A stretch of DNA of 28,614 nt from a virus. Below, in pieces: positions 221 through 25,435 of the stretch (the first letter of the stretch is position 1; every line of letters starts with the position of its first letter). Below the pieces are notes generated by a model. It did no database searches. It worked only from the letters and a program-made list of their open reading frames with translations, and was not told the origin of the DNA. The position numbers and the translations under genes are program-made. The stretch spans positions 1 to 28,614 of IMG/VR virus record IMGVR_UViG_3300032217_000566; one strand, given 5' to 3'.

Positions 221-332
221 CGTCAATTATTTTCTCCTATACAATATAAAAAGTCTTCTTTAGAATTCATTGACTAATGTGTCCGACACATTAGTCAACA
301 GTGTTATCATAAGACTTTTTAATTCGCAAAAC
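221..332. repeat. 112-bp direct repeat (left copy) containing a long imperfect palindrome
   Basis: This stretch matches 21853-21964 without gaps, with 10 substitutions. The first 37 bp are identical. The rest forms nested inverted repeats around one centre at base 284: an inner 14-bp arm pair (270-283 with 285-298) and an outer 10-bp pair (AAAAAGTCTT at 248-257 with AAGACTTTTT at 311-320). A and T runs at both ends would suit a bidirectional intrinsic terminator. However, this copy lies between the reversed operator array and the rightward early genes, where a terminator is not obviously needed. Origin, recombination site or regulatory hairpin are alternatives. Confidence 0.85.
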
Positions 333-550
333 ACAGCGACATATTAGGCAAAGATAAACACAGGGATTTCTGCGAACTATGAACCCCGATTCCTCGATCC
401 CGTATCCCTCGCCCGTATCCAGTAACACCTCGATCCTGTATCCCGCTTCGCACACCCGTATCCAGTAACACCTCGTCCGTATCGCACACCCGTATCCAGA
501 AACACCTCGCCCGTCCTCTAAAAATACTTTGCGATTCCTTGAAATACTTA
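333..550. repeat. Gene-free stretch with a 21-bp dispersed repeat
   Basis: I see no credible gene here. Three copies of a 21-bp unit beginning CCCGTATCCAG and ending ACACCTCG lie at 412-432, 455-475 and 489-509 (the last with one change). Between them are degenerate relatives such as CCCGATTCC and CCTGTATCCCG. The minus-strand open frame at 291-566 is made largely of this repeat and is not believed. The stretch ends at promoter P1. Confidence 0.7.
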
Positions 551-579
551 TTGACATTCTATACATAATATGCTATCAT
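551..579 (+). promoter_or_regulatory. Early promoter P1 (sigma70-type, extended -10)
   Basis: TTGACA at 551-556, a 17-bp spacer and TATCAT at 574-579, preceded by TGC (extended -10). The region 547-600 is nearly identical to P2 (928-977) and close to P3 (2679-2707), so it is a repeated promoter cassette. The predicted start is near 586, about 18 bases before the ATG at 604. Confidence 0.85.
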
Positions 580-8542: not shown

Positions 8543-8905
8543 ATGAAGAAACAACAGGTGATGATCCCTGCAAAGATGCCTTCACATGATCCGCTGTATC
8601 ATAGATACGAAGCATGGAAGATCCTTACTGCTGTGTGTAAGATCTCTAGCATTAACATATCGCGTCTTGACTCAAAGGAGAGAAGCAAAGGTCTTACTGC
8701 ATGGCGTGACATAGCCTACTGCGTTGCTGAGAAGTTCTTTCTCATGTCTCCTACAGAAGCAGCCAAAGCATTCAATGTTTCTCGCTCCACTATCATCAAT
8801 AGTGGAACGAGAAGTGACAACCTAATCGAGTGTCAGTCGCACGCTGAAACGCAAACGTATGTCGATATGTTGTATCGGGTATACGATACGGCTATTGCGG
8901 GTTGA
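8543..8905 (+). CDS. DnaA domain IV-like DNA-binding protein
   Basis: 120 residues from ATG 8543 (the frame opens at 8474, but the stop-T-ATG junction favours 8543). Residues around 53-90 (WRDIAYCVAEKFFLMSPTEA, then AKAFNVSRSTIINSGTRS) follow the layout of the DnaA C-terminal helix-turn-helix: R..IAYCVAE, a helix, then ..FNVSRSTI. A second protein of this type lies at 24654. There is no AAA+ domain, so it cannot be a full initiator; it may bind DnaA-box-like DNA or be a regulator. Its 3' end overlaps the end of the giant minus-strand gene by 14 bp. Confidence 0.6.
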   Translation: MKKQQVMIPAKMPSHDPLYHRYEAWKILTAVCKISSINISRLDSKERSKGLTAWRDIAYCVAEKFFLMSPTEAAKAFNVSRSTIINSGTRSDNLIECQSHAETQTYVDMLYRVYDTAIAG

Positions 8906-11900
8906 GTTTGATGTAACGCGTGTAGCGGTTGAGTTCGTCATTGAACGTCTTCATCCGCTGCACGCCCACATCTCCTAAGCTCAACACCTTTTCGATGAAC
9001 GCTGGATTTGGGACTGGCTTCTCCGATAGTCCGTTGAAGATCAGACTAATGCGGCGATCCCCGTATCCCATATCCTGCTGCTTCATAAGTCCAGCGGCTT
9101 CCCGAATCCCGAATCCTGAATTAGGGATGTTGAGGAATCCACGAAGTCCCTTGTAAACTTCTTCATCAATACGGACGCGAGTCTCAACCCATTCTCTGGC
9201 AAGTCCCTTGACTTCGTCGTCAGACAGCGCACGCTGCGTCTTGAGTTGATTGATCCTACCAGTCAGATCGTTCCGCTCCTTCTGTTTATTGCGAAGGAAC
9301 TTCGTCGCACTCTCCGTCACATTGACTTCGCGTGGCTTGATCACATTGAACTCATCCAGTAGAATATGGAGTGGTGCATACTTATCATCAACAGCGAGTC
9401 CTTGAGCAGAGTTGAATGCCTCCCATGCTTTCTGTATCGTGCGCGGATTGAACGAGTTGTCGATAATGTAGCCTAACTTCTTAGCGTATTGCATGATGCC
9501 GTCAGACTCATAGAAAATTGGTTGCTTTGTACTACGATCTTGATTGTTCCATACATCGAGCAATGCTCCAGTAAAGATCTGCGTATCAAGATAGGTACTG
9601 GATAAGGCTCCAGTAAAGTCAGTCATAGCCTTTGAATAGTTTCCTCTAGAGATCTGTTCAAGGCTACGCAAGATCGGATCAGCAACTAACGAGTAAGGAT
9701 TAATGAACGTAAGGTCGCCTGACATCAGCTTCCCATCAAGCCATCTGTAGTAGAAGTATGTATTGTCCTTAGCAAACGATGGCATACCTTCACGGAGTGC
9801 ATCATCCTCGTCGTCTCCAATCCCCATCCAGCGTCGCAGAGCTTCAGAAGCCGCACCTGAGATGACAAATAAGACAGAGTTCATACCCCAAAAGCGTTTC
9901 TGCCCACGACTTCTGATGACTGGATTATCTGACTTCCGCTCTTTAGACGCGAGCTTGTAAGTGTTGAAGATGATCCGTGGCACTTCAGTCTTGTATCGCA
10001 AGAATGGAGCCACAAACATTCCGCCACTACGGACAGTCGCCTGAATAATTGCTGGAGCTTCTGAGTAACTCTGCGCTGTAGCGAGTACGTTGTCTGCTGC
10101 AAGACGCTTCATCTCATAGTCTGTCAGTTTAGCGTAGTACGAATCCGTATTGCCAGCATCGAGGTCATGCTGCTTTGCTTTCTGGAATGTCTCAAGTTCA
10201 TGGTGGAAGTATGCCATCTTGTAGAACCCATCGACTGCTCCAGATGCTGCCCGAAGTCTATCAGTCAATGGCGCAGTTGCATCAGATGCCTTTCCGTAAA
10301 CAGCCCCAGCTTTTTGCTTTACAGCTTGAAGCTTCTCCATAATCGAATTAGCTTCTGCCTTCAAACTCTCTGGAGTCTTACGACCTTTGAGAAGATCCTT
10401 AATAAGCGACGATTGCATCTCATTATTAAGTATGTTCAATGACACTAGCTCTGCTCTGTATGCATCGATGTCGTGCGGATCTTTCACAACTTGTCCGATA
10501 AGCTTCATGGATAGTCCCATTGATTTGAAGTTAACGAACCCTTGAGATGGGCCGAAGAACAACGTGTTACTCACAATGTTACGAAGATAGAATCCAATCG
10601 AACCCATCGTCTTAACACCTAAGGATAGTCCAGTAAGCTTGTTGAACAAGTTGGATACTTCTTTAGTTGCAAGCTGTGATGCTGTCAGGTTGTCATCGAT
10701 TACTGGAGGGCTATACATCTTACGCATTCCTTCGATTAGTTCAAGCGGCCCGTACATATTGTACGTCGGATCGTATGTCCCACCTAAGTCATCTGGAACA
10801 ATCTCTTTGGAATCGGGAACGTAGATCTTTCCAGTCCGAAGATTAGCGTAACGCTGTTGCGTTGTGGGATCTTTCTTAATGAGTGCCTTCAACTGTTCTT
10901 CAGTATACAAGAATCCCTGTTCGACTGGCAGTCCATCTTCGCCGACAACTTGATTGCCATCAGGATCTAGTACTGGCTTTGAACTACCCATTGAAATCAA
11001 GTTATTGTAGAATGACTGACGAGCAACCATTGTAGTAACTGTCGAGTAAGTATTCAGCAAGTTTGATACTGCCTCTGTGTCCTGACTATATTCACCTAAC
11101 AACGCACGGAGACGAGGATCGATATTCGTTTTCCTCTTGAGGTTATCGATAAGAGATTTAGTAACACCCTTCGCTAAGACTCCACTTTTACGGTTATACT
11201 CTGGATCATACGATCTGATATACTGAACCATCAGCTGTGCGGCAATTTCAGGATGATCATCTAGATAATCCTTAGCTTCGATTCTAGCTTGCTCCTTCGT
11301 GAGTGCCTTTGATCCATCAATCTTAGACTGCTTAGTCGAATCCTTGACTCTGATACTTGCTTCTTTCTTGACGTAAAGTTCGCGGAAATATTCCATTGCT
11401 TCATCACGAATCTTCACGAATGCTTCATCCTTAGACGTAAGAACTTTATCCACGTAGCCTTCTTCAGAGAAGGTGCGGTAGGATCGAGTGAGGTAGATAC
11501 CCATTCCCGCATCGAAACGCACAGCAAGTGAACCTTTCAGTCCGTATTGCTCTTTCACTTTGCGGGAAAAAGCATCCGTAACCTTACGCATTTCAAGCAG
11601 TGCCGCTGCAAGTTCAGGAGAAGTGAGAGAGATCTTTTCCAGAGCAGCAGACTGCTTACGGAGAATCTCGTCGCGTAGTCTGGAACGCTCTGCTGTAATC
11701 CGCTGCACAACAAGTCTCTGATGGACACTAGTCAGATACTCTTTAGATGTAAGCTTCGCGCTAGTTTCAGGATTGAACTCCCCGTCCCTCACACGTTGTT
11801 TTACTGTCGCAACATAGGTGCGGTATTCACTCTGGAACTTCTGCTTAAGCTCTTTTTCAATCTGAATAAATTCAGTTGTTCCAACAGCATCTGCAAGAAG

Positions 11901-14900
11901 ATCGGATGGTGCATTAGCTTCGCTGCCATATGCTTCCTTGATCTGCTTAGTAATCTTGCTTGTGAGCGACTTGCCTAATGCATCTGTTGCACGCTCGAAA
12001 GATTGCTGATTCTTTTTGAGCTTGATGACTCGCTCATCGATATCGCCTTTGATGAGTTTACTCCATGTACTGGAAGCGTGTTGGTAGTTCCCGTTCTTGA
12101 ATAGTGCCACAGGAAGTTCAAGTGTATCGAACAGATACTTAAAGCGTTCTTCGATTTCTTCATCCGTCGTATCGGGATTGACCTCCCTAGCTGTTGCAGC
12201 ATAGCGGCGGCGGAGTACTTCGACGTTAGCTTCTGGAGAGCGTGGATCGAATGGACTATGGTTATCGACATTACGACCTCCAGATTGCATGAACTCAAGC
12301 TCGACGGCCATGCGATGAATCATTCCAGCGACTTCTGGATTATCTTTATTCAGGTTGTAGCGGGCGTACATCCGCTTGAAGACACCTTTGAAGTAGCGGA
12401 ACATGATACGCATGAGTGACGGATCGCTCTCGTAGAATGCGATGTCTTCCTCTGTAGTGTAACCGCGAGTAATCTTCTGCTTCTCCATACGCAGCATCTC
12501 CCCGATAAGCTGGCGTTTGATCTCGCCATCCTCGTCATTCTGAAGAGCCTCACGCAATTGACTACGGCGACTAGGATTAGCTGTGTACTCATCGACGATG
12601 TTGTAGAAGTCCTGATCGATGAACGAGTCTGCCAAACCGTTTAGTTCCTCCGTCGAAATCGCATAGAACTCTGCAACGTGGTCAAGCTCTTCTCCGATAA
12701 GAGATTCAAGAATCGCCTTAGCGTTCAACGGATCACTGATAGTGGACTGCTGGTTTAGAAGTGCTTTGCCCATCGTCTCTCTGTTGATAAAGATTGCTGG
12801 ATAAGTTTCTCCAGCATCGTTCTTCATCAGAGCCGCGACAATTGCATCCTCAGGACGATCCGCAAAGATTCCGTGTGCGTCTGCTTCAGCTTGCGTGTTG
12901 AAGACTTCGACGCTCACATCAGCAGGAATCAGTCCGCGAACTGCTTGATCGATCAGAATGTTGATTACTTCCTTTTGCTCTGGCGAAGTATCGATATCCT
13001 CAGAGATCGATCCGAAGTTTGCGAAGCGTGTTTGCTGTTGCGATTCTGAAACCTTCTCAACTACAGGAATAATTCTACGACTGACTCCGACACTAATGGC
13101 TTCTTGAATACCTCTATCAATGTAGTCACGACTTGTTCTAGCCATGCTGCTGTTTCCAACTTCTGTAAAGTCCGTAAGGGCTGCAAGTGCCGTATCGAAT
13201 TCACTCGTTGGCTTGATGCCGAAGGCACTCAAGATCGCATCATAGATACGGGCAAAGAAGTTCTTACCCTTAGTCTTAGGATCTTGCAGGAACTTCAGGC
13301 TATTCTGAAAGTCTGAGGAAGAGAAGTACGTCGCAATGAACTCTTCAAAGTTCTCTGTAGCAAGCTCGAAAGCAACGCTACGCCTGCCAGTCAAACGGGA
13401 ATCCTCTGTGTACGCGGCTTTAGTAAGCTCGTAGAGTCCTTTAAGTCTTGCCTTTGCCGTGCGCTGCGATGACGTGAGTGAGACATCGGGTCTAGTAAGA
13501 AGATCAACAGTGAGAGCGTGAACGTACTCATGTAGCAGAACTGACTCTACGCCATTGCCATAATAACCTGCAAGATTGACTGAGACACGACCTCCGCCCG
13601 ATTCAAACGGAATGAAATTTCCAGCTTCGTTGTTGTTAATATCCGTGATAACAAACTGAATGTTGCGAATAATGTCTGGATTTTTCAACAAGAGTTTAGC
13701 AATGGCTTTATGGTTCTTATCCTTGCCACTCTTAGCAATAAGATTCAAAGCAGAAATAACGGACTCGACGTTTCCAGATTCAAGACTAAGTCTCTCGACT
13801 TCTTGATTGTTCTTGTTGCGATAGAAGGCGCGGTACTTATCAGAGATGAACGATGGGGCTGCATAGCTACGCTGACCGACACGGGCAGCAATAACAACAG
13901 AAGCAGCTTCTCCTGAACTCATTCCAATATCCATCAACTCTTTGATGGCGCGGCTTTCTTCTCGCATGAATTTGACTTCAGCTTCTGTAAAGCCCAATTC
14001 GTTCACCATACGCGATTGGACCTTCTTATTCCATTGTTGTCTAAAGTCATACTGGAATGATCCTGATGCTTCAAAGGCATCATATACCGCTCTAGTTGTA
14101 GCGTTAACTGTCTTGAAGGTGTCCAATACTTTTCTACGGAATAGGTGTGATTCCATTACTGAGAACCTATTACCAGATGGAGATGCCCACTGTGCAATTG
14201 CTGCAAAGCATTGTTGCCCACTCATATTATCTACTAACTGTGGGCTATCTTTAAAGGCAGTCTGTTTAGCTAGACGCTTCATAGCTCTTCCAATTTCGCC
14301 ATCTGATTTGATAACGGATAGTGCATCTCTTACAATGTACCGATTAACTTCAGCCAAATACGCTGCATCTTCAGCAGTATGTATGTAAGAAGTTGTACTC
14401 TCATCATAGCCGTATACTTCATTTAGCGCAGATTCAAATTCATTGCCAGTAACTTCTGAACGAAGTTTACTGTAAGCGTCTGCCTCTGCATTATCTCTAG
14501 TAGCCCTCTCGTATTCAAGACGATCTTTAAGGCGATCTCTAATTCTACTAACGATAGTTGGGACATTTGGAAAGTCTCCATTACTATCGGCGTGAGCTAT
14601 GTTATCATTGATAGTATTCAATAAGAACTGATCGACTACTTTATTTGCCCACTGAGGATCTAGAACACGCTCTGCGTTCTTCTTAGCAGATACTAAGATC
14701 TCAGGTTTTATGCTGCCTGTTTTAAATCCGAACGTGTAGAGGAAGCTTGCTTTGTTTTCTTCTGCTGACGTAACTTTTAGATCTTGATCTAGTTTAGCAT
14801 CAGACGGAACTGAAAGGCTGTTAAGCAAGATTGATCTAGCTTGTTCAGTTCCTTCTGGCTTGATCGAATACGTAGAACCATTCCGCACAAGGATGTCCGC

Positions 14901-17900
14901 AGCTTGCAGTGACTGAACAATGTGTCCGTATGTCAGGGCGCGTGTAAACTCTGGAATTACTTCCATCATAAACTTCAACTTAACATCTTGAACTTCATTA
15001 CTGCGAAGTCTAAGTCGATCTAAATTCGCAAGCTTGAATAGTTTATTTGCTGCTCCAATGTTTTTCTTATACAGTGTGTTATCACCGCCAACATTCTGTG
15101 TAATTGTTGAATACACATTGCCAAAGAAGTTATTTACATTTATAAGTGCTTCTACAAGTGAGAACTCTTTAGCTGGTGCAGCTTCTGTAATGTCACTAAG
15201 GTTTTTACTTACGGTTACTTTGCTCTCGATAGACGGTTTAAATCCAGCAAGCAAATCAAAACTATCTGCGATAGTTTTAGGTATCGTATTATCTGTTGGT
15301 TTACTCTTGTTCTTATGAACAATCGAAACTTTTTCAAGAGGGTTTGAAGGACTTGGGAATTCTACATCATAAATTATTCTTGTTGCTTTATCAAATTTAA
15401 TCGCTTTATTTACGGCTCCATTGAAGTTTGTAGGAACTTTGATAGGGATCTGTAACTTTAGAATATGTGCGACTGTAAACGGATTGTTGTCGAACACCCC
15501 AATCTTAACTCCGCTATCTTTATAGAGTTTGTATGGGATGCTAACATTTTGTTCGTAGTTTCCAGTAAATGGATTGAACCAACTTAATTTAGGAGTCTTT
15601 GTAGACTCCATGTTTTGAGTTAGTATCCCATATAGTTCTACTACTTCAGCTAAAGAAAGTGGTGGGTACTTAGCAAAAGTACGCGTCGCCAACATATTCG
15701 ATAGCTCATTGTAATCGATAGCGTCACTGTAGTTAGCGGGCATTCCAAATGCCGCACTCTTCTTAAAGCGCACGACTGCGCCTTCATCAGAAAGGTAGTC
15801 AAGAACTTTAGGAATTTGTTCATTGGCAACTTGTACAGCAACGGACGCACCCCTTACACGTTCTTCATCCGCGAGCCTAAGCTTTTCAATACGTACTCTC
15901 TCAGTTTCAGCTTTAGCTTCCGCCTTAGCTTGAGCTGCTAAGGCTTTAGCGTCACTTGGAACTTTAGGAGTTTTGGGTTCCTTAGGAGCTTTGGGTTCCT
16001 TAGGAGCTTTGGGTTCCTTAGGAGCTTTGGGTTCCTTAGGAGCTTTAGGTTCCTTAGGAGCTTTAGCTTCTTCTACTGCAACTGTCCGCAGACGCTCTGC
16101 AACAGCAGAAGCTTGAAACGGATCAACGTCGTTCTGAGAGGATAGCCGCTCACGAATTCGTTTGTCAGCAGCTTCAAGAGTTAAGCCTCGTCTAACGAGT
16201 GCCTGAACTGCTTCGTTATATTCCTGCCTTGTAAACGAAAGCGAGTCATCGGGTTGGCTTTGGATCGAGTACTTAAGATTCTTATCCGCTTCTGATTGAG
16301 GAAAGATTAAGTTGGGATCTAAAAGTGGGCTTTCGACAATAGCAATAGGAGAAGAGATTTGATCAAGTAAGTCTGGAAGAGCTTGTTCGGAAGTCTCAAG
16401 ATAAGCTCCTTGAACTGCGGCACGAAACTCTTCTGGAGAAATGTCACGAAGTCTTTTGATAATCTCGTCGGCTCTACTATCAGCAAGAGGCTGAATCTTG
16501 AGTTCGTTGATTGGGATGGAAAGAACATCGGGAGTAGCGTCAGCATTGCCAGCCTCTACTTCTGCCATCGTAGTATTATCGTCACCGATTTTAACGTATG
16601 CAATCGGCCCGTTCTCAGATTCGGCGACGCCAATAACTGTGCCAGAATAGAATCCTTTGCTAGTGCGGCCTGATGCAACTTGTCCAATAAGCGGGTTTAC
16701 CTCTTCTTGTTCTGGTGCAACTTCTGCCGTATCAGTACGGAGACTCTGAGCAACAGAAGAAGTAGCGAAAGGCTTCTTGATTGCGCCTGTGAGATTAGCA
16801 TCTTCGATTGGCTTCCTTGATTCGGCAATACGATCAAGCACACTTTTGATATTGCTGCGAAGCTTATCAGCGGTGTCGGGCATCGAGTTGGCTGTCGGTG
16901 CAAGATCACGATTAGTCGCCAGTACGTGTGGATGCTCTGGATTTCCAGAAGATACTTTGACAATGTTGAGCTTACGGATATCTCCAACAGTCTGGTTTAG
17001 ATAATCTGCAACAGCTCGCAGATCTTCAGATCCATAGAAATTATTGATGTCTTTTCCTGAAGTTTTATTGAACCATCCATCTGAGCCAATGCCAAAGATC
17101 GGATACCACTTGCCTACAGCAACGTCAGCTTTGCCGCCAGATCCAGTACTGATGTAGAACGGCACACGAATGCCATTGATAGACGCAAGCACTAACGGTC
17201 TTCCAGAATAGTCCAGCACTCTAGCTTCACCAGACTGCTCTTCAAGAGGTCCGCCAGTTACTGTAGCGTACTTAGTAGTATATGGCGCAGAATCAAAAGT
17301 AACTTTGTTGCCGTTGATATCTGCCGCTTGTGCCAAGACAGATTCAAGCTGCTCAGGATTACTGAAAGACGCTGGCGTAGTTGGCGCAGCTGGTGCGGGT
17401 AGTGCTGGAGTTGCTGCGTTAGCCTGTGGTTTAATGCTTCCAGTTCCGATTAGTCCGACAGCGTTTCTTGCACCAGCAACGGCAGTAGCAGAAGTTTCTT
17501 CTGGCTTATTAGCCATTGCGTTCAGCTGGTCTAGCGTAACAAACTCATCTGAGTTCGCAGCAGCGGCAGCTGGATTAGCCGCAGATGGCTTTGCGGCAGC
17601 TGGAGCAGTAGCCTTTTGTTGCGGTGCAAAGATGCGCTTCTCGATTGCTTCAGCCGTAAGTGGACTACCAGCAGCACGTAAGTTTTCAGCAATTTGATTT
17701 ACGACAGAAGACTTTGCAGCATCTCGACTCTCAGCATCGATCTCTCCGCCTCTCGCGAATTTGCCCAACGTCGCACGGAAAGCTCCAGTTGCTCCACCGA
17801 ATACGCCGCCGTATACTGCCGCCATTCCTGATTGCTTAATGCGCTCAAGCATTGGACGGTCTTGACCCGTGAATCCTGTTTCAACAAACCCGTTGATAAA

Positions 17901-20063
17901 GTCTTGTAAACCTTCTTCAACTGCTTCGTCAGCAAAGCCCTTTGCAACACCCATTGTGGCAGAAGTCTTGAACAAGTTCTTATAGCCAGCTTTAACTGTA
18001 TTAGCTACGACTTTATTGAAAATCTGATTTGCGGCATCAGACTCAAGTTCTCCAGCAGGGAAGTTAATTCCTTTGATCTTTGAGAGAACAGCTTTCATCT
18101 GGCGTGGTGTAGCTCCGCCCAACATGAAGTCTTCTAGACCTCCGTGTCCCAACATCGAGAAGCCGACAGTAGTCGCTCCAGTGATTGTCGCGGCAATCAT
18201 TCCGCCAGCTAAAGCTCTGTTATGTCTTTCCTGCTCAGTCATCTTCTTACCTTCAGGGGAGTCCTGTAGGACAGAGTAGATATTTGCATAGGTGCTGCCA
18301 CCTTCACGGGTAGCCGCTGTCACAAACTGTGCAGAACGAATCAGGTACTTATTTGCAGTAGTCTCCGCATAGGCTTTAATGGCAGTAGCGGCACTTTGTT
18401 CTATCGTTTGCGTAGCCGTCGCTTTTACAAGACCTTTTGTAACGAGTCGAGCTGCGGCATCTGCTGCCGTTTCAGTTGCTGCTCTAGCGAGTGCGCCCCT
18501 TGCAATCCCAGTAACGATTCCCTTTGCAGTTAAGCGTGCGCCAGCGTATGCTGCTCCTCCGATTCCGCCAGCTTCTGTCAAAGCTGCCATTGTCACCATA
18601 TCAGCAACAACAGGAGCTACCATTTCTCCGAATGTAGTAGTAACGCCAAAATCTTCTCCAAAGATGTTTGCGAGTGTCTTGCGCGAGGATCTTTCTCGAT
18701 GTGACTTTAGCAGTGCGTCTATGCTTTCTTTGTTCTTTGTAACAGCCCCTACAGTATGGTAGATGTCAGCAACGCTATCGTATACTGAAGAACCAATGGC
18801 CCCGACAATTTCATTCTTAAAGTAGTTATAGTCATGCGTATTTAAAAAGTTATCCAGAACTTCTGACTTCTTTTTACCTTGTGCAAAGCCAGTCTGCACA
18901 GCATTCGTCCACTCATCTGATAGATAAGAATCCTTAAATACTTGTCCATAGGTGTCGAAAGACGAATCAAGTTTAGACTCGCGCATAGCACCGAAACCAG
19001 CACGTTGATCTTCTGTAAGATCTGGATTCGCTGTGACGGCATTGAATACACTCTGCTTGATAAGGGCATCACGATGCATGACAGGGGAACCGTATCCAAA
19101 GTAATGGAGGTTCTTCGTAATCTCTTCGCCTTCACGGAACTTGAGTTGTCCAGAATCAGCTGCAATAGTCCCACCTAAGAACTCAAGAGCGGCACGCTTA
19201 TCTGCATCAGGAAGATCAGAAAGTTCTGGAAGTTTTTCATCTAGATTATCGATGAGCTGTTTGTAATGAAAATCAATATCCCTCAGGGCAGAAGTTTTTC
19301 CATTATCAATATCTCCAATATCTGTAGCTAACTTCAAGGCATTCTTCTTAAATTCTTCATCCTTATTAAAAAGGGTAGAAGCTGCCGCTCTAGCTTTATC
19401 GTAGTTTTGTAATTGAAACTTAGGAACAGTAGAACCTGTAGGAATCGTATATGCATCTTGAATAGCAAGAGCGTCGTCGGCACTAAGAAACCCCATTCGT
19501 TTGCCTTGCTGATATGCATCATAAGGAGTCATATTCTTCGCAAGCTCTCCGCCGACATAACGCGTGTCGCCTTTAGCATCTTTGATTTTAGCAAAAGGAA
19601 TAGTACCTTCGCTGAGTAACTTCATCTGAACCTTATCATAATTGGCGTCAGTAGCCGCTTTAGCTTTAGCTTCAAGCTCTGGCATTGCCGCCTGATAAGT
19701 TTCAAGATCTGGTCCTTCGATCTTGCCAGCTTCAAGATTCTTCTTAGTGATGTAGAAGCGACGCATATCGTCGTAGCCAGCATCCTGTTCATTAGTGTTG
19801 CCAAAGACGTAATCGAACTTCCGTTCAAATGGCGTTTCTTTAGGAGCAAACTGTTTGTCAATATCCTCTTTGCTTAACCCTAAAATAGGGTCTGATAGTG
19901 AAGCATATCGCGCTTCATCTACTGTCTTATTAATATCTCCATCAAGCTTGCCCTCTTTAAAGTAAGAGTCTTTGACGTATTCAGAATACTTATTACGCTT
20001 TTCTAGTTCATCGCTAACATTGTTTGAAAGCGACCATTGGTCGATTGATTGAAGCTCAGGCAT
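8892..20063 (-). CDS. Giant (3,723-residue) polyvalent virion-type protein with a zincin motif
   Basis: One uninterrupted frame of 11.2 kb. Visible parts: hydrophobic, Gly/Ala-rich segments near residues 490-530 and 620-650; Ala/Pro-rich linkers near 790-900; a mixed domain around 905-1045; a KAPKEP repeat at about 1333-1365 followed by an Ala/Lys/Glu helix; a zinc-protease motif HEYVHALT with HExxH at 2178-2182 and a downstream NFEEFIATYF that could give the third ligand; long charged helices; and hydrophobic stretches near 3160 and 3390. Such multidomain giants are known in phages as polyvalent proteins, thought to be packaged and ejected with DNA. N4 virion RNA polymerase and T7 gp16 are functional analogies only. 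It follows two probable virion genes on the same strand. The TAG stop overlaps the convergent gene. Confidence 0.75.
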   Translation of the reverse strand: MPELQSIDQWSLSNNVSDELEKRNKYSEYVKDSYFKEGKLDGDINKTVDEARYASLSDPILGLSKEDIDKQFAPKETPFERKFDYVFGNTNEQDAGYDDMRRFYITKKNLEAGKIEGPDLETYQAAMPELEAKAKAATDANYDKVQMKLLSEGTIPFAKIKDAKGDTRYVGGELAKNMTPYDAYQQGKRMGFLSADDALAIQDAYTIPTGSTVPKFQLQNYDKARAAASTLFNKDEEFKKNALKLATDIGDIDNGKTSALRDIDFHYKQLIDNLDEKLPELSDLPDADKRAALEFLGGTIAADSGQLKFREGEEITKNLHYFGYGSPVMHRDALIKQSVFNAVTANPDLTEDQRAGFGAMRESKLDSSFDTYGQVFKDSYLSDEWTNAVQTGFAQGKKKSEVLDNFLNTHDYNYFKNEIVGAIGSSVYDSVADIYHTVGAVTKNKESIDALLKSHRERSSRKTLANIFGEDFGVTTTFGEMVAPVVADMVTMAALTEAGGIGGAAYAGARLTAKGIVTGIARGALARAATETAADAAARLVTKGLVKATATQTIEQSAATAIKAYAETTANKYLIRSAQFVTAATREGGSTYANIYSVLQDSPEGKKMTEQERHNRALAGGMIAATITGATTVGFSMLGHGGLEDFMLGGATPRQMKAVLSKIKGINFPAGELESDAANQIFNKVVANTVKAGYKNLFKTSATMGVAKGFADEAVEEGLQDFINGFVETGFTGQDRPMLERIKQSGMAAVYGGVFGGATGAFRATLGKFARGGEIDAESRDAAKSSVVNQIAENLRAAGSPLTAEAIEKRIFAPQQKATAPAAAKPSAANPAAAAANSDEFVTLDQLNAMANKPEETSATAVAGARNAVGLIGTGSIKPQANAATPALPAPAAPTTPASFSNPEQLESVLAQAADINGNKVTFDSAPYTTKYATVTGGPLEEQSGEARVLDYSGRPLVLASINGIRVPFYISTGSGGKADVAVGKWYPIFGIGSDGWFNKTSGKDINNFYGSEDLRAVADYLNQTVGDIRKLNIVKVSSGNPEHPHVLATNRDLAPTANSMPDTADKLRSNIKSVLDRIAESRKPIEDANLTGAIKKPFATSSVAQSLRTDTAEVAPEQEEVNPLIGQVASGRTSKGFYSGTVIGVAESENGPIAYVKIGDDNTTMAEVEAGNADATPDVLSIPINELKIQPLADSRADEIIKRLRDISPEEFRAAVQGAYLETSEQALPDLLDQISSPIAIVESPLLDPNLIFPQSEADKNLKYSIQSQPDDSLSFTRQEYNEAVQALVRRGLTLEAADKRIRERLSSQNDVDPFQASAVAERLRTVAVEEAKAPKEPKAPKEPKAPKEPKAPKEPKAPKEPKTPKVPSDAKALAAQAKAEAKAETERVRIEKLRLADEERVRGASVAVQVANEQIPKVLDYLSDEGAVVRFKKSAAFGMPANYSDAIDYNELSNMLATRTFAKYPPLSLAEVVELYGILTQNMESTKTPKLSWFNPFTGNYEQNVSIPYKLYKDSGVKIGVFDNNPFTVAHILKLQIPIKVPTNFNGAVNKAIKFDKATRIIYDVEFPSPSNPLEKVSIVHKNKSKPTDNTIPKTIADSFDLLAGFKPSIESKVTVSKNLSDITEAAPAKEFSLVEALINVNNFFGNVYSTITQNVGGDNTLYKKNIGAANKLFKLANLDRLRLRSNEVQDVKLKFMMEVIPEFTRALTYGHIVQSLQAADILVRNGSTYSIKPEGTEQARSILLNSLSVPSDAKLDQDLKVTSAEENKASFLYTFGFKTGSIKPEILVSAKKNAERVLDPQWANKVVDQFLLNTINDNIAHADSNGDFPNVPTIVSRIRDRLKDRLEYERATRDNAEADAYSKLRSEVTGNEFESALNEVYGYDESTTSYIHTAEDAAYLAEVNRYIVRDALSVIKSDGEIGRAMKRLAKQTAFKDSPQLVDNMSGQQCFAAIAQWASPSGNRFSVMESHLFRRKVLDTFKTVNATTRAVYDAFEASGSFQYDFRQQWNKKVQSRMVNELGFTEAEVKFMREESRAIKELMDIGMSSGEAASVVIAARVGQRSYAAPSFISDKYRAFYRNKNNQEVERLSLESGNVESVISALNLIAKSGKDKNHKAIAKLLLKNPDIIRNIQFVITDINNNEAGNFIPFESGGGRVSVNLAGYYGNGVESVLLHEYVHALTVDLLTRPDVSLTSSQRTAKARLKGLYELTKAAYTEDSRLTGRRSVAFELATENFEEFIATYFSSSDFQNSLKFLQDPKTKGKNFFARIYDAILSAFGIKPTSEFDTALAALTDFTEVGNSSMARTSRDYIDRGIQEAISVGVSRRIIPVVEKVSESQQQTRFANFGSISEDIDTSPEQKEVINILIDQAVRGLIPADVSVEVFNTQAEADAHGIFADRPEDAIVAALMKNDAGETYPAIFINRETMGKALLNQQSTISDPLNAKAILESLIGEELDHVAEFYAISTEELNGLADSFIDQDFYNIVDEYTANPSRRSQLREALQNDEDGEIKRQLIGEMLRMEKQKITRGYTTEEDIAFYESDPSLMRIMFRYFKGVFKRMYARYNLNKDNPEVAGMIHRMAVELEFMQSGGRNVDNHSPFDPRSPEANVEVLRRRYAATAREVNPDTTDEEIEERFKYLFDTLELPVALFKNGNYQHASSTWSKLIKGDIDERVIKLKKNQQSFERATDALGKSLTSKITKQIKEAYGSEANAPSDLLADAVGTTEFIQIEKELKQKFQSEYRTYVATVKQRVRDGEFNPETSAKLTSKEYLTSVHQRLVVQRITAERSRLRDEILRKQSAALEKISLTSPELAAALLEMRKVTDAFSRKVKEQYGLKGSLAVRFDAGMGIYLTRSYRTFSEEGYVDKVLTSKDEAFVKIRDEAMEYFRELYVKKEASIRVKDSTKQSKIDGSKALTKEQARIEAKDYLDDHPEIAAQLMVQYIRSYDPEYNRKSGVLAKGVTKSLIDNLKRKTNIDPRLRALLGEYSQDTEAVSNLLNTYSTVTTMVARQSFYNNLISMGSSKPVLDPDGNQVVGEDGLPVEQGFLYTEEQLKALIKKDPTTQQRYANLRTGKIYVPDSKEIVPDDLGGTYDPTYNMYGPLELIEGMRKMYSPPVIDDNLTASQLATKEVSNLFNKLTGLSLGVKTMGSIGFYLRNIVSNTLFFGPSQGFVNFKSMGLSMKLIGQVVKDPHDIDAYRAELVSLNILNNEMQSSLIKDLLKGRKTPESLKAEANSIMEKLQAVKQKAGAVYGKASDATAPLTDRLRAASGAVDGFYKMAYFHHELETFQKAKQHDLDAGNTDSYYAKLTDYEMKRLAADNVLATAQSYSEAPAIIQATVRSGGMFVAPFLRYKTEVPRIIFNTYKLASKERKSDNPVIRSRGQKRFWGMNSVLFVISGAASEALRRWMGIGDDEDDALREGMPSFAKDNTYFYYRWLDGKLMSGDLTFINPYSLVADPILRSLEQISRGNYSKAMTDFTGALSSTYLDTQIFTGALLDVWNNQDRSTKQPIFYESDGIMQYAKKLGYIIDNSFNPRTIQKAWEAFNSAQGLAVDDKYAPLHILLDEFNVIKPREVNVTESATKFLRNKQKERNDLTGRINQLKTQRALSDDEVKGLAREWVETRVRIDEEVYKGLRGFLNIPNSGFGIREAAGLMKQQDMGYGDRRISLIFNGLSEKPVPNPAFIEKVLSLGDVGVQRMKTFNDELNRYTRYIKLNPQ
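15974..16066 (-). repeat. 18-bp tandem repeat encoding Lys-Ala-Pro-Lys-Glu-Pro units
   Basis: About five near-identical 18-bp units (GGGTTCCTTAGGAGCTTT as read on the plus strand) encode the KAPKEP linker of the giant protein. Identity at nucleotide level points to recent expansion. The product is a stiff basic spacer between domains. Confidence 0.85.
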
Positions 20064-21158: not shown

Positions 21159-21761
21159 TTATCGAGGAGTTGGGACAGGACTAAGAGTACCATTCTTCCT
21201 TAAAGCCTCAATCTGTGCCCTGATAAATTCATTGGTAAGCCTGTTTTGCTCTTCAAGTTGGGCTTGATACTGCATAGCTGCGCTAGTAGCTGCGCCGTCT
21301 TGTTTGTCCCGCTCTGCTTGATATCCTTCGCTTTTGAGAACTGGCTCTTTAAGTCCAGTAGCTCCAGCAGTTTTGGCAAGATCATTTGCAGCACCACCGA
21401 AGCCTTGTCTTTTAAGGCGTCTAGCCATACGCAAGGCTTTACCCGTATCTGATTCAAGGGCCGTAGCGGGCATACTAGTTGCTGTTGACGTACCCATACG
21501 TGCGCCTTGCATCGCGTCGTAACGATCAAGCAAGCGGGTAGTCGGTCCTTGCGAATTGGATGGGTTCAAGTTTGGTCCGCCGAATGCTCCACTATCCTTT
21601 GACCTTTGACGGGCTGCGGCTTCGTCGGCATCAAAGATAGATCGCACAGGTTTTGCCGTAGCAAGTGGCATAGCAGGGAGCGGTTTGAACTTTTCTTCTT
21701 CATCAGGAAACAATCTCCCGCTAGTCGTAGCAAATTTCCCGTTAGCAATCGTCGAAGCCAT
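21159..21761 (-). CDS. Probable virion-associated protein, 200 residues, first gene of the late unit
   Basis: Not recognised. It is low in hydrophobic residues, with a disordered N-terminal half (Gly, Ser, Thr, Asn, Pro-rich: GGPNLNPSNSQGPTTR) and a helical C-terminus (AAMQYQAQLEEQNRLTNEFI). Ala/Arg-rich LRMARRLKRQGFGGAANDLA lies near residues 109-128. Composition and position resemble small internal virion or scaffold-type proteins. Start ATG 21761 lies 6 bp after a -10-like TAAATT, so the mRNA may be leaderless. Confidence 0.6.
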   Translation of the reverse strand: MASTIANGKFATTSGRLFPDEEEKFKPLPAMPLATAKPVRSIFDADEAAARQRSKDSGAFGGPNLNPSNSQGPTTRLLDRYDAMQGARMGTSTATSMPATALESDTGKALRMARRLKRQGFGGAANDLAKTAGATGLKEPVLKSEGYQAERDKQDGAATSAAMQYQAQLEEQNRLTNEFIRAQIEALRKNGTLSPVPTPR

Positions 21762-21852: not shown

Positions 21853-21964
21853 CGTCAATTATTTTCTCCTATACAATATAAAAAGTCTTATTTAGAAGTC
21901 CTTCACTAATGTGTCGGACACATTAGTGAACAGTGTTATGATAAGACTTTTTAACTTACAAAAC
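21853..21964. repeat. 112-bp direct repeat (right copy) with long palindrome, next to terL stop
   Basis: The second copy of the 221-332 element, same orientation, starting 21,632 bp away. The inner 14-bp arms (21902-21915 and 21917-21930) carry paired changes relative to the left copy: G272/C296 there is C/G here, so pairing is kept. The outer arms end in AAAAAG and CTTTTT. It ends 2 bp beyond the terL stop, so on the minus strand it can act as a terL terminator, with T runs on both strands. Flank conservation beyond the stem suggests an additional function. Confidence 0.85.
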
Positions 21965-21965
21965 G

Positions 21966-23771
21966 CTAATCCAACAAAGCCGTCTCCGAATTGCTGAGTG
22001 CGCCACTCAATGACTTGAAAGAGTTCGGCGGCTTCCTGAATCCTGCTTCCGTCGAATCGTTCGGTGGTTCCATTGCTACCATCCCCAAACGCTGACGGGC
22101 GCAGTCCAGTGCGAGGAAGGCGGCATCCGCTAAGTCGGGCGACCTGCCGAAGCGGGACTTGAACTCTGGCTTTGATTCGATCTTCACTTTTAGTGAGCCA
22201 GTCTTGACTAGTTCGTAGTTCCTGCTTGTGATTTCCTGTGCCAGATCGGCGGAGATTCCGAATAACTGCTTCGTCCGCATGAGTTCCTTACCCACGAACC
22301 ACAATTCAGATACACGGTTCACGTAGAGTTCCTCGCCAGTAAGCTTGCTGTTCGCGCTGACACGCTTGTCAGAGGGCTTGCCGCCGAAACTGACACGGAA
22401 TATCGATGGCGACCACTCGCCTGCCAGAACGTCACAGAAGGGTGCGCCTGCGCCCGTAGCATCGACTGCAAGATTCTCAGGCAAGATGTTCCTACGCTGG
22501 CAGTGCTCCTTGACTTGCCTCACAATCTGGTACGTTCGCGGAATCGCCTTGTTCGTCGCGTCGTCGTTCAGTAGGATCGCCTCTCCGAATTCAAAGACGT
22601 AATGCCCCGTCGTGTCGTAGCCTACTGTAGCAGTATACAGGATCGTCCTATCTCCTCCGTTCGTGAACGCGGGATCGAGTCCCGCAACAATCGTCGGCTT
22701 GCCAGCCCATTCGACTTTGTTCATTGCCTTGCTAGAAGTCAGCTCAACTTCGCTGTAAATCCCTTGCGTCTCGTCGCTATCAAAGAAGATTGCGCGAATC
22801 ATCCGCAAGTAACCTCTAGACTCCGCACCCAACAAAGCCCTGTCCTCAATCAGCTTTTCCTCTGTGGGGAGCCAAGGATACAGGACTTCTCCAGCCAGAA
22901 TGTTGGGAGAACGCTCGCCGTCCAGCCGTAAGTAGAAACCACCCCACTTTGTTTTCCAGTTATCTGCCGTATTAGTATCTACAGAGTCCCATCCACGAAG
23001 TGGCTCAGACCAGATTCCGAAAGCGTCGAAGCGACTATTCGGGTTGCTCATACCGATCATCTGGAACTCTGGATTCTTTGACAAGTTGGTAAGACCCGCA
23101 TTTAGAATTGCTTCCGAAATTTCAGAAAGCTCGTCTCCGATTACGATGACCCGTTTCTGCTTGATACCGATGAACTTGCCAACTGCTTCCCGTGTCTTGC
23201 TCTTTTCAGCCGCAATCAGGGACAGTCCAGCCCGTTCGATCAAATCGCCGTTCTCATTGATGTAAGCGACGTTTCCAATTGAATCCCGAATCTTGCACGG
23301 TGCGTTGGGAATCACTGTCAGTAAGCTGATTACGGAACCCCAAATCCGTTTACGGGCTTCACGTAACGTCGTAGAGGTCATCAGGACGAGCGTGTCCTTT
23401 GGCTGCGACAGCCAGTTGATGATTGCCCACGCTGCCATTGTGTGGGATTTTCCGCTTGATGCCGATCCCCCGATTGCCAGATACTTGTTGCCAATAGCGG
23501 CACGCACCATTTCTTCAGCCCACGGATGGCGCACCATCAATTTTTCTGGAAGATCCTCGTTGTTCCAAAGCTCATCACAGCAACGCCAGAAGTAAAACTC
23601 CTTTGCCCTACTGTTCGTATGATTAGCAAATCCGTAGAGCAAAGCAGTCAAAAGACTCGTCGGAGGGATCAACAAACCGCCAATATCCATCTTCCTTGTT
23701 GTCGGGTCAATACGTGGCTCCAGCAACTTTTTTGTTTTTTCTGACGAAACGCTCATTTTTTTCTTGCCCAC
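21966..23771 (-). CDS. terL: Terminase large subunit
   Basis: A 601-residue DNA-packaging motor and nuclease. The ATPase half has Walker A GGSASSGKS (101-109), a segment LVLMTSTTLREARKRIWG as usual after it, and Walker B VIVIGDE (208-214). MIGMSNPNSRFD (238-249) is in the position of the coupling motif. The nuclease half shows the acidic trio of the RNase H-like fold: D366 (GLDPAF), D437 (AVDATG) and D546/D549 (SPDLADA). Length is typical. The longest start is GTG 23771; ATG 23756 is an alternative that removes five residues. The gene is divergent from the small-terminase candidate, with only 36 bp between. Confidence 0.92.
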   Translation of the reverse strand: MGKKKMSVSSEKTKKLLEPRIDPTTRKMDIGGLLIPPTSLLTALLYGFANHTNSRAKEFYFWRCCDELWNNEDLPEKLMVRHPWAEEMVRAAIGNKYLAIGGSASSGKSHTMAAWAIINWLSQPKDTLVLMTSTTLREARKRIWGSVISLLTVIPNAPCKIRDSIGNVAYINENGDLIERAGLSLIAAEKSKTREAVGKFIGIKQKRVIVIGDELSEISEAILNAGLTNLSKNPEFQMIGMSNPNSRFDAFGIWSEPLRGWDSVDTNTADNWKTKWGGFYLRLDGERSPNILAGEVLYPWLPTEEKLIEDRALLGAESRGYLRMIRAIFFDSDETQGIYSEVELTSSKAMNKVEWAGKPTIVAGLDPAFTNGGDRTILYTATVGYDTTGHYVFEFGEAILLNDDATNKAIPRTYQIVRQVKEHCQRRNILPENLAVDATGAGAPFCDVLAGEWSPSIFRVSFGGKPSDKRVSANSKLTGEELYVNRVSELWFVGKELMRTKQLFGISADLAQEITSRNYELVKTGSLKVKIESKPEFKSRFGRSPDLADAAFLALDCARQRLGMVAMEPPNDSTEAGFRKPPNSFKSLSGALSNSETALLD

Positions 23772-23807: not shown

Positions 23808-24410
23808 ATGGACGAAGAACAAGATATGGATAATCCGCTCTTAACAAGAGCGTTGGAGATGTACGCGAAGGACTACAAAATCAAAACCATTGCAAAAGAA
23901 CTCAATGTCCATGCAGGAACGATTCGTCGTTGGTTCAAGAAGATCGGGATTCCCGCGAGGAAGAACGGTTTTGCACAACCTAAAAAGGTTCTTCCAGTTG
24001 ATATTCCGCTTGATCCTCTTGCTGACGATCTGGAAGAAAACCTCGATAACTTCACGGATCAAGCTATACGAGTGGCAAAGCACGAAGCCCGAATAGCGGA
24101 AGACAGTGCCTTGATCGAGATCGCTGAAGCGCAGTCAACGCCAGCAGATAAGTACCAGCACTACATTGCTGCTGCTGGAATCAAGCTCCTACGCGACTCA
24201 ATGAAGAACCTTAAAGGTCCAAAGACTGTAAGGGAACTCAGCGAACTTGACCAGTTGATCCGACGTAATTTGGGCCTGAACTCAAAGAGCGGCGGCGGTC
24301 AAAGTAAAATGCACATTGACATTTCAATTCTCAATAATACAAAAGCTGATCGTGGAGAGGGCAGCGTCAAAAAAATGAAACAGACCATTATCGATATTGA
24401 ACCAGAATAA
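23808..24410 (+). CDS. terS: Candidate small terminase subunit (HTH protein)
   Basis: A 200-residue protein with an N-terminal helix-turn-helix at about residues 23-47 (IKTIAKELNVHAGTIRRWFK), then a basic-proline stretch, an acidic segment (DPLADDLEENLDNF) and a helical oligomer-type centre (EARIAEDSALIEIAEAQS). This layout and the position beside terL suit a small terminase, which recognises packaging DNA. The divergent orientation relative to terL is unusual, and a regulator remains possible. ATG 23808 is chosen; ATG 23826 is the next option. The symbol is provisional. Confidence 0.58.
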   Translation: MDEEQDMDNPLLTRALEMYAKDYKIKTIAKELNVHAGTIRRWFKKIGIPARKNGFAQPKKVLPVDIPLDPLADDLEENLDNFTDQAIRVAKHEARIAEDSALIEIAEAQSTPADKYQHYIAAAGIKLLRDSMKNLKGPKTVRELSELDQLIRRNLGLNSKSGGGQSKMHIDISILNNTKADRGEGSVKKMKQTIIDIEPE

Positions 24411-24411
24411 T

Positions 24412-24654
24412 ATGTTTAAGAACAAAATTGCAGAACTAAATGCTAGAGCCTTAGTTAGGAAAGAACTTCCAGACGGAGATTTTACCTTTGAAACTAAAAC
24501 CTTAGCGGGAATCTTTTACCGTGTGTTCCCGTACAATGGGCGCGAAGTTTGTTATCTCGAATCACTGAGTAAAGGAACAACGATGTTTGCTCCTGAATCA
24601 GGAGACGGGATTCTTGTACGGGCAGATGTAATCAATTACGTTTCAGAGAACTGA
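24412..24654 (+). CDS. Hypothetical protein, 80 residues
   Basis: Not recognised. The frame opens earlier through a TTG, but the stop-T-ATG junction after the preceding gene points to ATG 24412. It is probably a compact beta-rich protein (GDFTFETKTLAGIFYRVFPY; GDGILVRADVINYVSEN). Its TGA shares a base with the next ATG (TGATG), so the genes are coupled. Confidence 0.6.
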   Translation: MFKNKIAELNARALVRKELPDGDFTFETKTLAGIFYRVFPYNGREVCYLESLSKGTTMFAPESGDGILVRADVINYVSEN

Positions 24655-24959
24655 TGTATCACAAATTCAATCAAGAGAATAAGGATCTGATCTTAAAGCT
24701 TTCCGCAGAAGAGTTCAGCTGCACAGTAGATGGTATCATCGCAGTTGACAGATCAAACCGTCCGTCAAATGCAAGACACGTTTCGATGGCAATCATGAAA
24801 GCATTGCTTAAATGTACTCTCACAGAAGTAGCTGCGGTATTTGGCAAGCACTACACTACTGTGATACACGCGAAGAAGCGTGTTGATGAAGACATGCAAT
24901 TAAAGAACTCCGCTTTAGTCGTCATTAGAAAATTTAAAGAGCAGATGACTGAAGAATGA
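24654..24959 (+). CDS. DnaA domain IV-like DNA-binding protein
   Basis: A 101-residue protein whose centre (about 38-78) reads SNARHVSMAIMKALLKCTLT then EVAAVFGKHYTTVIHAKKRV. This is the DnaA domain IV signature: R..AM.L...., a helix, then E....FG..HTTVIHA. In DnaA this helix-turn-helix contacts the DnaA box. Here it stands alone with no AAA+ ATPase, so it could compete with host DnaA, mark a phage origin, or be a domesticated regulator. It resembles the protein at 8543 in type but not closely in sequence. It is coupled to both neighbours by overlapping stop/start codons. Confidence 0.75.
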   Translation: MYHKFNQENKDLILKLSAEEFSCTVDGIIAVDRSNRPSNARHVSMAIMKALLKCTLTEVAAVFGKHYTTVIHAKKRVDEDMQLKNSALVVIRKFKEQMTEE

Positions 24960-25435
24960 TCGTAGGCATCGACAACGGACTCGACGGCGGGCTGTGTGCG
25001 ATCTCAAAGCACAACGGATCGATCATCGACAAGTTAGCGATGCCAACTTTCCAACGCGCTGGGAAGCGTGAAGTAGATTCAAAGGCAATCTACAACTGGA
25101 TCTGCGACCTGAATACTGAATCCGTTATCGCGATTGAGGAGCCGTTGAAACACGCGAAGTCTTCGCAAGCTATGCGCTCGATGGGCATTTCGTTCGGGAA
25201 GATCATGGGGATGTGCGAGTCACGCGATCTCAAAGTCAAGCCGATTCAAGTACTGGACTGGCAGAAGAAGATGTTGGGCAAAGTGCCAAAGTCCCAAACA
25301 AAAGTTTTCGCTTTGCGGAAAGCAAACGAACTCGCGCCCGACGAAGACTGGCGCAAGAACGAACGATGCACTGTTCCGCATGACGGAATCATCGACGCCT
25401 TTTTGATCGCAAGATTCGTGCTAGAAAATTCTTGA
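24956..25435 (+). CDS. RuvC-like Holliday junction resolvase / nuclease
   Basis: A 159-residue RNase H-fold nuclease. The first strand is IVGIDNGLDGG with D6, the second acidic site is AIEEP with E61/E62, and the C-terminal site is HDGIIDAFLIARF with H142, D143 and D147. This arrangement (D, E, then H/D..D) and the size match phage and bacterial RuvC-like resolvases, which cut four-way junctions during replication or packaging. ATGA overlap with the previous gene. No RuvA or RuvB partner is visible, as usual for phage versions. Confidence 0.83.
   Translation: MIVGIDNGLDGGLCAISKHNGSIIDKLAMPTFQRAGKREVDSKAIYNWICDLNTESVIAIEEPLKHAKSSQAMRSMGISFGKIMGMCESRDLKVKPIQVLDWQKKMLGKVPKSQTKVFALRKANELAPDEDWRKNERCTVPHDGIIDAFLIARFVLENS

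Follow-up and report, generated by a model that had tools for sequence, protein, structure and literature searches.

The 28,614 b of DNA analysed here (the window), one uncultured phage record in IMG/VR, carry two copies of a structured intergenic element that, as far as the tools used here show, is real, conserved and previously undescribed. Most likely, it fulfils an ordinary function, that of a transcription boundary, in an unusual form, with a core specific to each genome, a feature left unexplained by a plain terminator. We consider it somewhat probable that the element is a bidirectional terminator-like insulator hairpin, placed at the transcription-unit boundaries of a lytic phage group.

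The two copies lie at 221-332 (c1) and 21853-21964 (c2) as direct repeats of 112 nt each, 91% identical and spaced by 21,632, with the minus strand as the element strand in both and the conserved TTGAC tail of c1 at 221. A BLAST search within the window genome aligns them with E = 8.8e-42, and a covariance model matches both on the minus strand, at 222-326 (103 bits) and 21854-21958 (107.6 bits). In c1 the inner palindrome, TTGACTAATGTGTC C GACACATTAGTCAA, occupies 270-298, with arms of 14 bp each at 270-283 and 285-298 around one central base, 284, and the outer arms, AAAAAGTCTT at 248-257 and AAGACTTTTT at 311-320, are coaxial with it and share this centre. The layout of c2 is that of c1 at +21,632, centred on 21916: its inner palindrome, TTCACTAATGTGTC G GACACATTAGTGAA, spans 21902-21930 and its outer arms, again AAAAAGTCTT and AAGACTTTTT, are found at 21880-21889 and 21943-21952, the central base being C in c1 and G in c2. 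An earlier note on this DNA had described these two elements with coaxial inner 14-bp and outer 10-bp arms, as well as the exchange of the pair G272/C296 of c1 for C21904/G21928 in c2 with pairing kept, and we could confirm both in the sequence; a single G/C to C/G swap between two copies would, taken alone, be weak evidence. The 37 bp that were said to be identical outside the stem (221-257) are indeed identical, but 10 of them belong to the left outer arm. Both strands of both copies are predicted to fold far better than dinucleotide shuffles (200 of 200 beaten, z = -5.0 to -6.0), and the pair is not a product of chance, since many related phages carry the element as well.

The exact inner core is present in five virus contigs besides the window; G002 (62,920 b) holds it three times, at 225, 21852 and 60960, and G001 (60,814 b) once, with a second copy near its start added by a mismatch-tolerant search. 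With the covariance model the element was found in 23 of 49 related records, most of the records being fragments, usually in 1-3 copies and in G039 in four, and three places recur among them. At the c1 place, the element has an array of palindromic operator-like sites to one side and the early genes to the other; in the window, c1 is adjoined by five such tandem sites (85-222, TTGTCATATTTATGACA), and the first early promoter lies on its opposite side. The c2 place is between the terminase and the following gene, with c2 of the window directly 3' of the stop codon of the terminase large subunit gene, which lies upstream of it (21966-23771, minus strand; phrog_2, E = 1.5e-17). At the c3 place (L105, L106, L108, L109, L128, L147 and L152), the element is upstream of the presumed portal operon, just ahead of the gene that precedes a portal-like gene of 749 aa, a name suggested by size and position; the 749-aa protein matched no family. 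Copies c2 and c3 precede late-type operons, of 13 kb and about 21 kb, respectively, and the genes beside c1 are early ones. In a scaffold-only IMG/VR scan, the matches listed were mostly chance ones, together with already-known members.

An unbiased search for palindromes behind the terminase found a strong palindrome in 101 of 179 loci (40 distinct), and outer arms with an A-run and a T-run are present in all 40, including lineages missed by the covariance model. Many relatives have the same design behind the terminase with a different core, e.g. GTAGTTCATTAAGC-NNN-GCTTAATGAACTAC, and in every lineage the outer stem is bordered by the A-run and the T-run, whether its sequence is replaced or not (AAAAAGTCCTCTG..., AAAAACTTTCTA..., AAAACTATTCTC...). 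As separate observations, the element in the c2 regions of G029, G031, G050 and L352 (L169, L171, L177, L352) is surrounded by one more inverted repeat, e.g. TGTATTTACATTGTAGTTTGAT ... ATCAAACTACAATGTAAATACA, which adds a third or fourth coaxial stem, and after the terminase stop of L325 (one contig) the inner palindrome is deleted and the outer arms are left, by either a natural deletion or an assembly collapse.

Two scans gave 297 and 434 terminase relatives for the phage group, the 297 being IMG/VR loci. The terminase search identified no cultured phage, the DNA search gave only short weak matches and no cultured relatives, and the DNA polymerase search gave only distant cultured relatives (≤28% identity among the matches listed). 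Among genomes, the only terminase relatives found were on four contigs, which belong to three uncultured MAGs from unrelated taxa and give no basis for host assignment. The gene content of G002 includes a family A DNA polymerase, a primase-helicase-like protein, a helicase, an exonuclease, a RuvC-like resolvase, an amidase and an RNA ligase; no RNA polymerase was seen among the matches listed for it. In the window, the operon downstream of c2 contains a giant ORF of 3,723 aa (8892-20063, minus strand) with an HExxH-type motif (HEYVH) and PKEPKA repeats, which is conserved in relatives (3,600-3,730 aa), has no match in Pfam or PHROGs and is perhaps an ejected virion protein.

In an alignment of 21 copies of the element from relatives, 88.8% of the cells are paired, 13 pairs have changes on both sides and the covariation score is 0.388, against 0.166 after shuffling, which agrees with the earlier suggestion of a structure under selection. 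There are 85 double-changed cells, compared with 35.3 in shuffles and at most 13 when partners are slid, and sliding by 1-3 columns destroys the covariation signal. Arms that diverge with loss of complementarity, a pattern that would speak against selection, were looked for in the relatives and not seen. Because the shuffle and slide controls have known weaknesses, the covariation claim is based chiefly on the observation that entire cores are replaced while their pairing persists. On the late-sense strand, the inner stems have about 17 G.U against about 5 A.C (distinct events counted by hand, p = 0.008), and 10 against 4 at the terminase loci alone (p = 0.09); this wobble excess favours folding as RNA, although a mutational strand bias could mimic it.

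At 36 of the 40 distinct loci, compared with 16% in shuffles, a sigma70-like promoter lies between the hairpin and the next start codon, and its -10 mostly ends 5-9 nt before the ATG, i.e. it is leaderless. In the window, c2 is followed by such a promoter (21796-21768, minus strand; TTGACA-17-TAAATT), whose -10 ends 6 nt before the ATG at 21761, and the first early sigma70-like promoter (551-579, plus strand; TTGACA-17-TATCAT) lies to the right of c1. The statement of the earlier note that one copy lies where no terminator is obviously needed is not supported: c2 has the stop codon of the terminase gene on one side and the promoter of the following operon on the other, c1 precedes the first early promoter, and both places are sensible for an insulating terminator. 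The promoter persists in 37 distinct relatives that have no hairpin, and in 34 of them its -35 overlaps the stop codon of the terminase gene. Hence the promoter is conserved and the hairpin in front of it is a separable unit that may be present or absent, as would be expected of an insulating terminator. The conserved TTGAC tail was also considered as the -35 of the operon, which fits G039 only, the promoter elsewhere being a second TTGACA further on.

We propose that the hairpin, standing just upstream of sigma70-type promoters, would stop transcription that arrives from the gene or strand upstream, ahead of the start of the following operon. The outer arms (an A-run followed by G/C-T-Y-T, paired with AARA-C/G-T-run) supply a T-run on both strands, and the long inner stem would make the structure fold first; that an RNA hairpin terminates transcription here is what we infer from sequence features. 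The element resembles bidirectional intrinsic (rho-independent) terminators in that A- and T-runs border its stem, whichever strand is read, and in its location at transcription-unit boundaries. In contrast to these, its inner stem is strong but has no T-run behind it, and the T-run follows the outer arm of an AT-rich stem that is looped off from the long inner stem by about 10 nt on each side. Neither copy has the G+C-rich stem directly followed by a T-run of intrinsic terminators, and the consensus terminator scan made no call at c1 or c2, whereas ordinary compact terminators (AAAAAGGGTGTTGACAACAACACCCTTTTT) are found elsewhere in the same genomes. In L358, L352 and L169 the pairing extends past the T-run, which is needless for a transcript ending there.

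The core is uniform within a genome and replaced between genomes. Inner-core identity is 0.90-1.00 among copies of one genome against 0.53 between genomes, and arm identity 0.69-1.00 against 0.63 (leaving aside the G039 rows with copy 0, in which opposite orientations are compared). The cores of the copies in G031 are 0.97 identical and their flanks 0.73, and for L352/L115 the values are 0.97 and 0.69. Even imperfections are common to the copies of one genome, namely T.G in G009 and on the contig of L352 and L115, C.T in G043 and G.G in G050, and c2 of the window differs at 1 position from the non-orthologous c3 of G002 and at 4 from its positional counterpart, c2 of G002. This last relationship indicates that the copies are either homogenised by exchange, probably through recombination or gene conversion, or bound by a phage-specific regulator. 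A plain terminator leaves the within-genome identity, the between-genome unrelatedness of the inner sequence and the extra half-sites described below unexplained. In G005 (one metagenomic contig), the otherwise imperfect element has a version with perfect 37-bp arms, which may be a change of the template-switching kind or an assembly artefact; it resembles the quasi-palindrome mutations by template switching described in yeast (PMC3820800), with the difference of organism and of resting on that one contig.

One alternative is that a phage-encoded regulator binds the inner palindrome, either as DNA or folded as RNA, and thereby controls whether transcription crosses the element, in the manner of repressors at stoperators or of N proteins at boxB; we regard it as possible but doubtful. 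The inner palindrome is identical or nearly so at all copies of a genome, with differing flanks, and unrelated between genomes, as this would predict. In addition, an extra half-site by c1 (338-347, minus strand; CTAATATGTC) is separated by 53 nt from the half of the inner palindrome that it matches, a spacing also found in G002, G001 and G003 and thus fixed for this motif in the clade of the window; extra half-sites are also found in G050, L351, L352 and L378, and the half-site CTAATGTGTT overlaps the -35 of the promoter downstream of c2. The phage encodes HTH proteins (23808-24407 and 24654-24956 of the window), but the candidate binder is only hypothetical and many lineages have no extra half-sites. 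Furthermore, arms of 13-18 bp, mostly perfect, exceed the needs of a dimeric operator, and the imperfections common to the copies of one genome fit plain copying of one sequence. The stoperators of cluster A mycobacteriophages, which are short, asymmetric and bound by a known monomeric repressor (PMC9283540, PMC6550527), are likewise repeated intergenic sites, uniform within a phage, different between phages and linked to ending transcription, whereas the element is a long, mostly perfect dyad. Tentatively, the inner palindrome could be a self-recognition site on a conserved terminator scaffold: each phage would encode a regulator that binds the version of that phage at every copy and so renders the boundaries conditional (open or closed).

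A site for recombination or module exchange, at which the copies would provide homology or form cruciforms cut by the phage RuvC-like resolvase (24956-25432), shuffling cassettes, seems unlikely. Besides the presence of this enzyme, the ectopic relationship between c2 of the window and c3 of G002 speaks for it, as does the first gene after c2 (21159-21761, minus strand), which is replaced by an unrelated gene in the close relative G002; yet this swap has its boundary at the start codon, at a distance of about 90 nt from the element, and the copies keep conserved positions. No integrase or resolvase-type recombinase was seen in G002 among the Pfam matches of 45 proteins or the 25 of 47 PHROGs families listed, and exchange would leave the promoter association and the wobble bias unexplained. 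We give an equally low probability to RNA processing or 3'-end protection, i.e. an RNase III site or a stabilising end of the upstream transcript, for which a long double-stranded RNA between genes and the wobble bias on the late-sense strand would be suitable, but which explains neither the T-runs kept on both strands nor c1, ahead of early genes in the opposite orientation. That the leaders of long late operons contain a processive antitermination RNA (put- or EAR-like) is very improbable: there is a sense-strand RNA structure ahead of long operons, but c1 points away from the early operon, an Rfam search of the window gave 0 matches above the gathering score, and the element is outside the mRNA of its own operon because the promoter is downstream of it. 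Four further candidates were rejected, namely an N4-type hairpin promoter with a giant virion RNA polymerase (the 3,723-aa ORF was searched for RNA polymerase motifs and none were found, nor any match; a PF00940 search of 17 records gave no match, and the control genomes also gave none), a hairpin telomere (at every copy the contig continues on into unique flanks, and a genome has 2-4 copies), an invertible or excisable segment with inversion or circularisation (no recombinase seen in G002 among the families listed, direct copies, fixed places in relatives) and a mobile element or MITE (positions conserved between relatives).

Other repeats were also observed. The palindromic operator-like motif TGTCATAAATATGACA occurs, besides the five tandem sites at 85-222, as single sites upstream of early genes (~654, 991, 1279, 1626, 2473, 2751, 3691, 5018 and 6431), and each relative has a form of its own around a TAAATA core (TGCAGTAAATACTGCA in G001, TTGCATTAAATAATGCAA in G009, GATGTAAATACATC in G050), which suggests phage-specific operators, judging from these motifs. 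Three early promoters (521-604, 898-981 and 2649-2732) are almost the same, TTGACA-17-TATCAT with a TG preceding the -10, and ~80 nt of their flank is repeated with them. Palindromes lying between early genes of L109 (577-612, 1577-1608), L128 (3100-3136, 3484-3516) and L155 (2310-2339, 4294-4325) have a core common within the genome (CTTAGTGCA..., CTGTAATAC...) and outer arms that differ yet are complementary, the same logic as the main element without the T-run. Degenerate repeats around CCCGTATCC / ATCCTGTATCC lie at 391-509, 1531-1558 and 9056-9083 of the window, and are also dispersed in intergenic regions of relatives.

By analogy, the nearest known kind is the PeSL cassette (promoter-early stem-loop) of T4-type phages (Arbiol et al. 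2010; Comeau et al. 2014), as far as the accounts available via PMC4503421 and PMC3950731 describe it: a small intergenic stem-loop terminator with a sigma70-like promoter, repeated in one genome and exchanged between copies. The stem-loop adjoining a sigma70-like promoter is found here as well, at the 36 of 40 distinct loci given above (16% in shuffles). According to the same accounts, PeSLs reach high density in plastic regions, in contrast to the 2-4 copies at fixed places seen here; shuffling at the element was not seen, and the one gene swap observed ends at a start codon and not in the element. Relative to the PeSLs so described, the hairpin precedes the promoter and in some cases a late operon, it has two or three coaxial stems, and the phage group is unrelated to T4. 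The element thus appears to work like a PeSL, and is not a member of this kind.

These findings reveal a structured intergenic element common to a large group of uncultured phages, which marks transcription-unit boundaries and leaderless promoters, and whose core follows an unusual pattern, being uniform inside a genome and replaced between genomes. This genome-specific core makes the element a testable case for hairpin-centred gene conversion or for phage-specific control of termination. If self-recognition is true, specificity classes would diverge between phages, like immunity or nut-site specificities.
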